A DNA stretch of 26,275 bases, from IMG/VR virus record IMGVR_UViG_3300049846_000488, positions 1-26,275 of that record; one strand, written 5' to 3'. Source of the DNA: a virus. A program made the translations under genes and the position numbers. This document shows positions 3,665-5,557 of the stretch, piece by piece. Each line of letters begins with the position of its first letter. Positions within the stretch are counted from its first letter, which is position 1. The notes beneath the pieces are model-generated. The model searched no databases and was not told the DNA's origin. It was given only the letters and a program-made list of their open reading frames with translations.

Positions 3665-3802
3665 TTGGCCGTAAAATCCAAGACCGCACTGGGGCGCGTC
3701 GAGCACAAAGCCGGACGCCCTAAAACCACAAGTCAGGGTTTCGGACAGCACAGCCGTCCACGTCGTCGCGGCAAGAAAAAACTGGTCGGTCAAGGCCGCT
3801 AA
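3665..3802 (+). CDS. Small basic protein, 45 aa, TTG start
   Basis: The frame reads MAVKSKTALGRVEHKAGRPK and ends RPRRRGKKKLVGQGR. TTG at 3665 is the only usable start after the in-frame stop at 3647-3649. The protein is very basic (Lys/Arg-rich tail) and low in hydrophobics, suggesting nucleic-acid or envelope binding. Short proteins with the same opening and closing pattern occur, as far as I recall, in cyanophage genomes, which supports real coding. It sits between the integrase and the lysis genes. Function unknown. Confidence 0.55.
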   Translation: MAVKSKTALGRVEHKAGRPKTTSQGFGQHSRPRRRGKKKLVGQGR

Positions 3803-3833: not shown

Positions 3834-4085
3834 ATGGAACATCACGAGGAAGTTCACGCCGCCGCACCGCAACCACCTAACTTGATCAATCAGGCTGTAC
3901 CGGCATTGCTGGCCACGGCTGTGATCGGGTTAGGTGGCCTTTTTATCCAGGTTGCCAAACTGGATCAATCGGTTAGCACGGTCGCCGCCGATATTCAAGA
4001 GCTAAAGAACGACTCAAAAGAAAGGCTTAGTGACCTTGAAGCCAGAGTGCGCCAGATTGAAATGACGGTTGGCAGTCGCAAATGA
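3834..4085 (+). CDS. Single-pass membrane protein with coiled coil, holin/haemolysin-XhlA-like
   Basis: After a hydrophilic N-terminus (MEHHEEVHAAAPQPP) there is one transmembrane helix (about 20-42, AVPALLATAVIGLGGLFIQV) and then a coiled coil (LDQSVSTVAADIQELKND...LSDLEARVRQIEMTV). This topology is seen in phage holin accessory proteins such as the XhlA type, and the next genes lead straight to the endolysin. The lysis role is inferred from topology and position; no sequence motif proves it. An alternative is a membrane-anchored structural accessory protein. Confidence 0.6.
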   Translation: MEHHEEVHAAAPQPPNLINQAVPALLATAVIGLGGLFIQVAKLDQSVSTVAADIQELKNDSKERLSDLEARVRQIEMTVGSRK

Positions 4086-4117: not shown

Positions 4118-4255
4118 ATGGATCCCACCACTGCTGCTGTTATTGCCATTCTTGTGGCTGCAGGTTCTGAGATTATTGCCATCCTGCCGATCAAAGAAAA
4201 TAGCTGGCTACAACTGATTGTTAAGGCGCTTAAGGTGCTGTTCCCAAAGCGCTGA
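4118..4255 (+). CDS. Small hydrophobic membrane protein, 45 aa, possible holin component
   Basis: The protein is MDPTTAAVIAILVAAGSEII, then AILPIKENSWLQLIVKALKV and LFPKR. It has one hydrophobic segment (about 5-23) followed by an amphipathic helix and basic C-terminus. It lies 32 bases after the coiled-coil membrane gene and just before the endolysin region, so a lysis role (holin or antiholin) is reasonable but unproven. The last codons contain C CCA AAG (4243-4249), a -1 slippery heptamer in the correct phase; slipping there would enter the open frame of the next entry instead of stopping at 4253-4255. Confidence 0.6.
   Translation: MDPTTAAVIAILVAAGSEIIAILPIKENSWLQLIVKALKVLFPKR
4243..4249 (+). 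promoter_or_regulatory. Candidate -1 ribosomal frameshift heptamer C CCA AAG
   Basis: In the 45-aa gene's frame the bases read ..C CCA AAG CGC TGA. This is the X XXY YYZ form; a -1 slip gives CCC AAA GCG CTG and enters the downstream frame, which has no standard start codon. An SD-like AAGG lies about 8 bases upstream (4232-4235), where stimulators sit in bacterial -1 sites, and GCGCT (4249-4253) can pair with AGCGC (4275-4279). All are modest signals. Confidence 0.35.
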
Positions 4256-4533
4256 ATGCTGACACGGTATGGCTAGCGCGGTTTGGCCAAAAGACTTGGC
4301 GTGATCAACTGCGTAAAGCAGCGCAGGATTACAAATTTGAAAAAACGCTAGGTCCACGGCTGGATCGCGCAGAGGCTGATTGGCATAAGGCACAGCCAGA
4401 AAGCGCAACACCTGTCATTGTGTATGAGTTGCCTGATCCTGAGTTACAGACTGGTGATAGCCGTTTGCTTGGCGGCGCCATGAGTATTCACGCACCTTGG
4501 AGTGATGACGCAAAACGCAATCAGGCTGATTGA
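4252..4533 (+). CDS. Hypothetical protein, non-canonical start or frameshift product
   Basis: The frame reads LNADTVWLARFGQKTWRDQL, continues with RKAAQDYKFEKTLGPRLDRAEADWHKAQ and ends SDDAKRNQAD: clearly protein-like, charged and helical. There is no ATG, GTG or TTG in its first 56 codons; the frame opens after a stop at 4231-4233. Two readings fit: a CTG start at 4252 overlapping the previous stop as CTGA, or a -1 frameshift from the 45-aa membrane gene, giving a ~137-aa membrane-anchored fusion. It overlaps the endolysin start by 32 bases. No known domain recognised; from context it may be a lysis accessory protein. Confidence 0.5.
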   Translation: MNADTVWLARFGQKTWRDQLRKAAQDYKFEKTLGPRLDRAEADWHKAQPESATPVIVYELPDPELQTGDSRLLGGAMSIHAPWSDDAKRNQAD

Positions 4534-5557
4534 CCTGTTTCGGTATTACAGGCATGGGTTGCCGCATCAAATGGCAGCGGTAACGGAGCTTGAGGCTGCG
4601 ATCAATAAGGCGAATCCGCATATCCTTGGCCGTGATCAGGGTTGGTTTAAGACGTGGAGCCAAAGCGGCAAACAGGACGAAAACGATCTGGAGCCAGCAC
4701 TAGATCTGATTCGGCAGTTTGAGGGTTGCAGGCTTGAAGCTTATCTGTGCCCGGCTGGTGTATGGACAATCGGTTATGGCCACACTGGCCCGAACGTAAA
4801 GCCTGGGCTGAAAATCACACAGGCAGATGCAGAGGCGTTATTGCTGTCTGATGTTGAGCGTTTTGCGCGTGCTGTTGATACGTGGATCAAGGTAAAACTG
4901 AGCAATAACCAGCGTTGCGCCCTGATTAGTTTTACGTTCAATGTGGGCATTGGTGCGCTGCAGGGAAGCACGCTGCGTAAACGCCTTAATAATGGCGAAG
5001 ATGCTGTGAAGGTGGCAATGGAAGAGTTGCCACGATGGAATAAAGGCGACGGCGAGATCCTTGAAGGCTTAGTGCGGCGTCGCAAGGCAGAGGTTGATTT
5101 GTTTTGCCGTGGCGTAAAACCTTTGACCGATGATGTGAAATTGACCCCTGATAAGCCTTTCACTTTTAAGGTGACGCCACATATTACTTATGGCGAGCTG
5201 ACATTAAACGAAGAGGCTAGGCGTTTTACGAAACAGCATCAATGCGACACGGCAGTTGTGTTGTGCAATTTCCTTGAAAAGGCTCGCGCTGCGTTTGGCA
5301 ATAAGCCCATTGTGATTACCAGTGGATATAGACCGCCGAAGGTGAATGCATCTGTGGGTGGTGCATCTAGGTCGGAGCATCTTTACGACGCACCCGATAC
5401 TGGAGCCGTTGATTTTTACATTGATGGTGTCAACATTTACGACCTGCAGGAATGGTGCAAGGCTCACTGGCCGTTCAGCTTGGGGCTAGGTGCTCCAAAA
5501 GGTTTCATGCACATCGGAATTCGCCCTGGTCGGCCTAAGGTGGTTTGGGTTTACTGA
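4502..5557 (+). CDS. Two-domain endolysin: GH24 lysozyme plus M15 peptidase
   Basis: A lytic enzyme that would cut peptidoglycan twice: glycan strands by the lysozyme domain and peptide stems by a D-Ala/L-Ala-D-Glu-type carboxypeptidase. The GH24 part (about 63-205) shows RQFEGCRLEAYLCPAGVWTI and GYGHTG, giving E74-x8-C83-x5-T89, the E-(D/C)-T triad of phage lysozymes. The C-terminal M15A part (about 225-351) shows SGYRPP, H293, D304 in GAVDFY and H337 in FMHIGIR, the zinc-ligand pattern. The N-terminal ~60 residues are a separate region of unknown role. GTG at 4502 is followed by ATG at 4505; either may be used. No signal peptide is seen, so export would need a holin. Position after two small membrane genes fits a lysis cassette. 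Confidence 0.87.
   Translation: MMTQNAIRLIDLFRYYRHGLPHQMAAVTELEAAINKANPHILGRDQGWFKTWSQSGKQDENDLEPALDLIRQFEGCRLEAYLCPAGVWTIGYGHTGPNVKPGLKITQADAEALLLSDVERFARAVDTWIKVKLSNNQRCALISFTFNVGIGALQGSTLRKRLNNGEDAVKVAMEELPRWNKGDGEILEGLVRRRKAEVDLFCRGVKPLTDDVKLTPDKPFTFKVTPHITYGELTLNEEARRFTKQHQCDTAVVLCNFLEKARAAFGNKPIVITSGYRPPKVNASVGGASRSEHLYDAPDTGAVDFYIDGVNIYDLQEWCKAHWPFSLGLGAPKGFMHIGIRPGRPKVVWVY

Follow-up and report, generated by a model that had tools for sequence, protein, structure and literature searches.

The stretch of viral DNA analysed here (IMG/VR record IMGVR_UViG_3300049846_000488, 26,275 nucleotides at full length and hereafter called the window) contains, just in front of an endolysin gene, a protein-like reading frame without a start codon of its own, and the question raised by this locus is how such a frame is translated. 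The frame overlaps the end of a gene for a 45-aa protein, and the initial annotation had proposed that the two are joined by a programmed -1 ribosomal frameshift. The comparison of homologous junctions presented below makes it very probable that ribosomes shift to the -1 frame in a programmed manner at this junction, which lies in a cyanophage lysis region. The site probably gives a 45-aa holin-like peptide and a 138-aa membrane-anchored form, whose role is putative and deduced from sequence.

A -1 frame at the end of a small membrane protein gene

The 45-aa gene (positions 4118-4255, plus strand, as are all window features given with coordinates below) belongs to phrog_22542, a family of unknown function, and encodes a holin-like candidate that would form the N-terminal anchor of the predicted fusion. 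It ends in CTG TTC CCA AAG CGC TGA. As initially annotated, the slippery heptamer C CCA AAG lies there in the correct phase (4243-4249), and the 0-frame stop TGA (4253-4255) follows one codon 3' of it; at homologous sites the heptamer can instead be A AAA AAG or G GGA AAG. The -1 frame opens after a TAA at 4231-4233 and closes at a TGA at 4531-4533; past the end of the 45-aa gene it runs for 93 codons and reaches the endolysin gene. It was confirmed that no ATG, GTG or TTG occurs over the first 56 codons counted from 4252, the first such codon being a GTG at codon 57. The extension that encodes the C-terminal domain (GCG CTG AAT ... TGA, 4249-4533) thus has no start of its own. Among the window's ORFs of 40 codons or more, the 45-aa ORF alone combines a strong in-phase heptamer close to its stop with a long extension in the -1 frame.

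The -1 frame had also been described as a protein-like frame of more than 90 codons, and its substitution pattern agrees with this: its dN/dS is about 0.2 (0.15-0.21), low against the values of 1.2 and 2.0 in the other two frames of the same DNA, and the -1 frame is therefore protein-coding. An in-phase heptamer at the end of one ORF and a -1 coding frame without a conserved start are both found at this locus.

In the mechanism that we propose, most ribosomes would terminate at the TGA at 4253 and release the 45-aa membrane peptide, and some would slip back by one base at C CCA AAG, the tRNAs involved being tRNA-Pro and the only tRNA-Lys (anticodon UUU) expected in the host. Tandem slippage would give a product composed of residues M1 to F42, followed by Pro, Lys, Ala (GCG, 4249-4251) and Leu (CTG) onward, with FPKALNAD at the junction, that is 138 residues and about 15 kDa. 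The length of 137 aa given initially is corrected by one residue, because the Ala codon precedes CTG. The 138-aa protein would combine the membrane anchor of the 45-aa gene with the conserved C-terminal domain; the slippage event itself and its rate are what we infer from sequence.

Stimulatory elements were searched across the family. An AAGG resembling a Shine-Dalgarno (SD) sequence is indeed present in the window (4232-4235), 7 bases 5' of the heptamer, as noticed earlier, but it is no feature of the family: it is found at 40 of 150 sites, namely 32 of 57 with C CCA AAG, 8 of 88 with A AAA AAG and none of the five with G GGA AAG. An upstream SD of the dnaX type is consequently rejected as a general stimulator, and the AAGG of the window would be auxiliary at most. 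Downstream of the heptamer, RNAalifold runs on each heptamer group revealed no stem or pseudoknot that is conserved (alifold z between 0.7 and -2.5). The only candidate for a general stimulator across the family is the nearby stop codon, which lies one codon past the heptamer at 136 of 150 sites. Some shift sites of tailed phages seem to function without stimulators (PMC5009743), and the nearby stop together with the weak pairing of AAG by a single tRNA-Lys may be enough for slippage. The tRNA genes of one cyanobacterial genome were examined, namely the genome of the Cyanobium locus L166 described below; the 36 found there include just one tRNA-Lys, whose anticodon is UUU.

Conservation of the probable shift site among homologous junctions

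Homologous junctions were collected with both halves of the predicted fusion. The 93-aa frame as query gave 80 loci in viral contigs, and tblastn of phage records with it gave S-CBS3, KBS-S-2A, S-CBS1 and S-EIV1; the 45-aa part added relatives with and without the downstream domain, including the T7-like isolates S-B28, 7B11-B and WH11-B. After removal of duplicates the set comprised 152 junctions with the domain and 43 without it, presence or absence being assigned with a motif rule, after which obvious misassignments were put right by eye.

The domain lies in the -1 frame at all 152 distinct junctions, 150 of which carry a heptamer (88 A AAA AAG, 57 C CCA AAG and five G GGA AAG), and this supports the frameshift reading. 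The exceptions are L054, with G AAA AAG, and L166, in a Cyanobium contig, without a heptamer. The initial annotation had asked whether homologues keep the frame in -1 with the heptamer or have an ATG start; the -1 arrangement is the one found, with either the same heptamer or a different, likewise highly shift-prone one in that position, all three types being X XXA AAG heptamers of high shift proneness in Escherichia coli (Atkins et al. 2016, PMC5009743). The recurrence of the junction in more than 150 distinct sequences and seven isolates rules out sequencing error as its cause.

The seven isolates with a shift site are S-CBS3, S-CBS1, KBS-S-2A, S-EIV1, S-B28, 7B11-B and WH11-B. The predicted junction of S-CBS3 reads ...LRAIKGKKALGKTWEQ... 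and the heptamer of S-EIV1 is G GGA AAG; in S-B28, 7B11-B and WH11-B, CCA AAA AAG TAA is followed by a -1 ORF of 54-64 aa that ends in a similar SISLTxPW/F tail. None of the examined records of the seven isolates carries a frameshift annotation. A frameshift would correct these annotations, since S-CBS3 gp22 and S-CBS1 gp23 have been annotated from internal starts that would be false and the -1 frames of KBS-S-2A and the T7-like isolates have largely been missed. A further occurrence of the gene pair, with A AAA AAG, is on a short contig in a Verrucomicrobiota MAG bin (L165), which is probably phage DNA within that bin.

Codon choice at the shift site indicates that the heptamer is selected beyond the amino acids that it encodes. 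In the C CCA AAG group the codons TTC, CCA and AAG are invariant in 57 of 57 junctions, and the heptamer codons have a synonymous diversity of 0.00, against mostly about 0.3-0.65 for the neighbouring upstream codons. Those relatives of the 45-aa gene that lack the domain serve as controls, and 34 of these 43 have no heptamer. When the gene ends in F-P-K, proline is encoded by CCA in 61 of 61 cases with the domain and in 9 of 28 without it, where CCC, CCT or CCG is used in the other 19; K-K is written AAA AAG in 85 of 85 cases with the domain and in none of 10 without it, these ten having AAG AAA or AAG AAG. Fisher's test of codon choice with and without the domain gives p of about 1e-13, a value not corrected for relatedness. 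Moreover, the tree of the N-terminal 45-aa part indicates several switches of heptamer type, a count that is rough as the alignment is short. That the shift site is kept while the heptamer varies among three types argues strongly, from natural variation, that slippage is under selection.

CCCAAAG is still present at nine sites without the domain. Among the relatives that keep it (L128-L131, L133-L135, L137-L139, L141, L151 and L152), most have FPKQRR ends and the -1 frame resembles the endolysin read out of frame; the heptamer is perhaps a relic or a truncating shift. L147-L150 also keep CCCAAAG, and their -1 tail is merely 28 aa long and basic (PKALTAAPERRRPKQQRRRRQWRKTRSD).

Two other ways of expressing the -1 frame have to be weighed against ribosomal slippage. 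In translational coupling, ribosomes would stop at TGA and restart at an overlapping codon (CTGA, TTGA), producing a free C-terminal protein; a CTG start of this kind was the alternative named in the initial annotation. The codon that overlaps the stop is in fact CTG at 97, TTG at 13 and GTG at three of the 152 junctions, but an NTG overlap is automatic, because every TGA stop gives NTG in the -1 frame. The stop is TAA or TAG at 39 junctions, and CTA, TTA or GTA overlaps it there, so the CTG start fails across the family, and a coupled restart leaves the invariant heptamer without explanation. We consider it very improbable as the general mechanism. Homologues with a normal start and no heptamer, which would have favoured it, are not the rule in the family; the one exception is L166:4793-5120 (Cyanobium sp. 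N5-Cardenillas contig), where the same gene pair has no heptamer and a GTG overlaps the stop as GTGA, so a coupled start may have replaced frameshifting there. Frame-joined mRNAs could also arise by transcriptional slippage on an A run, which the A6G at 88 junctions would fit; only three A's are present, however, at 57 junctions, the window included, and five have GGGAAAG, these being classical tandem-slip heptamers, and we regard this explanation as the most improbable of those considered, with next to no weight. Programmed -1 ribosomal frameshifting is thus the reading retained below.

The C-terminal domain and its side of the membrane

The domain encoded in the -1 frame is made up of a predicted helix, a proline-rich linker and a LQTGDSRLLGGAMSIHAPW motif. 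The AlphaFold model shows a helix and, around the LLGGAMSIHAPW motif, a short hairpin, without a defined fold (pTM 0.38). Sequence searches of Pfam and the PDB gave nothing convincing and Foldseek found no match in the PDB; against BFVD, Foldseek led to S-PM2p161, a protein of phrog_3316. The domain aligns with phrog_3316 in hhalign (E 2.8e-5), and four family members match it in a PHROG profile search (E 1.5e-5).

In these T4-like cyanophage relatives a related domain (LGGEIRLCAPW in phrog_3316) stands in frame behind an N-terminal hydrophobic segment, in proteins of 130-137 aa. Unlike the predicted fusion, they are encoded by one continuous ORF starting with ATG, and their Lys-rich N-terminus is apparently unrelated to the 45-aa part. 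S-PM2p161 itself (L300:17831-18226) is encoded without interruption (132 aa), carries a hydrophobic segment in its N-terminal part and has a lysozyme gene about 1 kb away; lysozyme or endolysin genes likewise occur in the vicinity of the relatives in DSL-LC03, S-SRM01 and S-B68. S-PM2p161 and the proteins L305-L308 (T4-GC 410) have an LGGxxRLxAPW or FGDEGWSIxIxNP tail and are single ORFs. That anchor and domain together could make a functional form is supported by the T4-like relatives, whose in-frame protein has the same size. It is possible that the domain family spans three phage morphotypes.

On which side of the membrane the domain would lie bears on a different reading of the fusion, in which the -1 product is a protein resembling an inner-membrane spanin and the 45-aa peptide its by-product or regulator. 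A membrane anchor, a helix and a proline-rich tail are what the predicted fusion would offer such a protein, and the Lys-rich N-termini that precede the hydrophobic segment in the T4-like relatives, together with a Cys after the segment in three of four, suggest a periplasmic domain. In the 45-aa part, by contrast, Asp at the N-terminus and K/R past the helix suggest, by the positive-inside rule, a cytoplasmic C-terminus. Spanin profiles match neither the fusion nor phrog_3316, no lipoprotein partner was identified, and the neighbouring gene for an 83-aa protein (3834-4085; one transmembrane helix and a coiled coil, weak matches to Rz-like spanin and holin profiles) is an equally good candidate for the inner-membrane spanin. 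The spanin-like reading is therefore rather improbable, although not negligible.

A putative lysis gene and its relation to known systems

Several features make the 45-aa protein a holin candidate. It is small, with one transmembrane helix predicted by hydropathy (residues 7-25) and an amphipathic helix at about 29-42, and it adjoins an endolysin without a signal sequence, as judged from its sequence. This endolysin (phage lysozyme plus peptidase M15, 4502-5557) starts at GTG 4502 or ATG 4505, both of which fall within the last part of the -1 ORF. Profile searches with both halves gave no lysis-protein match beyond weak ones, the only holin profile matched by the 45-aa family being phrog_1356, in one of 26 members and weakly (E 0.01). 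In the window, as in S-CBS1, S-CBS3 and KBS-S-2A, the endolysin gene lies 3' of the putative frameshift gene; other cyanophages have a small predicted protein in the place of the 83-aa gene. In the T7-like S-B28, 7B11-B and WH11-B the gene lies between the tail fibre and the terminase small subunit, the position that the holin gene 17.5 has in T7.

A role of this gene in lysis is accordingly likely. It could instead be that the frameshift is real and the gene merely adjoins the endolysin, and it is true that no endolysin is annotated next to it in S-B28, 7B11-B and WH11-B and that it has no characterised homologue; the position in front of the endolysin in the four phages named, and the match with the place of T7 gene 17.5, speak against this, which we judge unlikely, at about one chance in a few. 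Within the lysis reading, we tentatively favour a holin-like short form and a modulating long form. The long form would be a lower-copy variant that modulates the short one, or would carry the domain to the membrane. More tentatively still, the balance between a short and a long version of one small membrane lysis protein might be fixed through -1 frameshifting in siphovirus-like and T7-like cyanophages. If this is true, lysis timing would be built into a slippery codon pair and not into two start codons, with the T4-like relatives keeping a single ORF; and, should the two forms control lysis, the little-understood timing of cyanophage lysis would become testable through single synonymous changes.

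The mechanism itself is established, and it is the gene family and its setting that appear to be new. The best-known examples of programmed frameshifting in tailed phages are tail chaperones and capsid proteins. The A AAA AAG of 88 junctions is also the heptamer of E. coli dnaX, where lysine codons slip with one tRNA-Lys. In dnaX an upstream SD and a downstream hairpin assist the shift, which shortens the product, whereas the cyanophage site has no conserved stimulator and its shift lengthens the product. Should the lysis reading be right, the gene would also resemble that of the lambda holin and antiholin S107/S105, in that one gene encodes a small membrane lysis protein in two versions, but lambda uses two starts and the cyanophage gene would have two ends, with an extension of about 94 aa. 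The lambda g-t tail assembly chaperone shares G GGA AAG with the group of S-EIV1 (Xu et al. 2004, as cited in PMC3483164) and, as is proposed for the cyanophage gene, has a short main product and a less abundant one with a C-terminal extension; it is, however, another gene in another module, and no homology to tail chaperones was seen. In the capsid frameshifts of T7/T3 10A/10B and Lactobacillus phage A2 the minor product is also extended at its C-terminus (PMC5009743), those being structural proteins and the cyanophage gene encoding a small membrane peptide.

Our literature search covered open papers and found no frameshift described in a cyanophage or in a holin or lysis gene of a tailed phage. 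The nearest case is the old one of the MS2 lysis gene, the expression of which was formerly linked to frameshifting (Kastelein 1982, as cited in PMC10885494) and which differs in that, according to the same source, no fusion protein is made.

Two small ORFs were also observed. Upstream of the lysis genes, the window contains at 3665-3802 a very basic 45-aa ORF with a TTG start and a weak match to phrog_516. In Microviridae SD_MC_44 (MH572431.1), a single-stranded DNA phage, an unannotated 46-aa ORF (L175:2489-2629; MEIIMANPELFLAAALAISEIIALTPLKSNSIFQLLFNILKRKEGS) between the scaffolding and replication genes shows similarity to the 45-aa membrane peptide (tblastn E 2e-3) and is a candidate lysis peptide.
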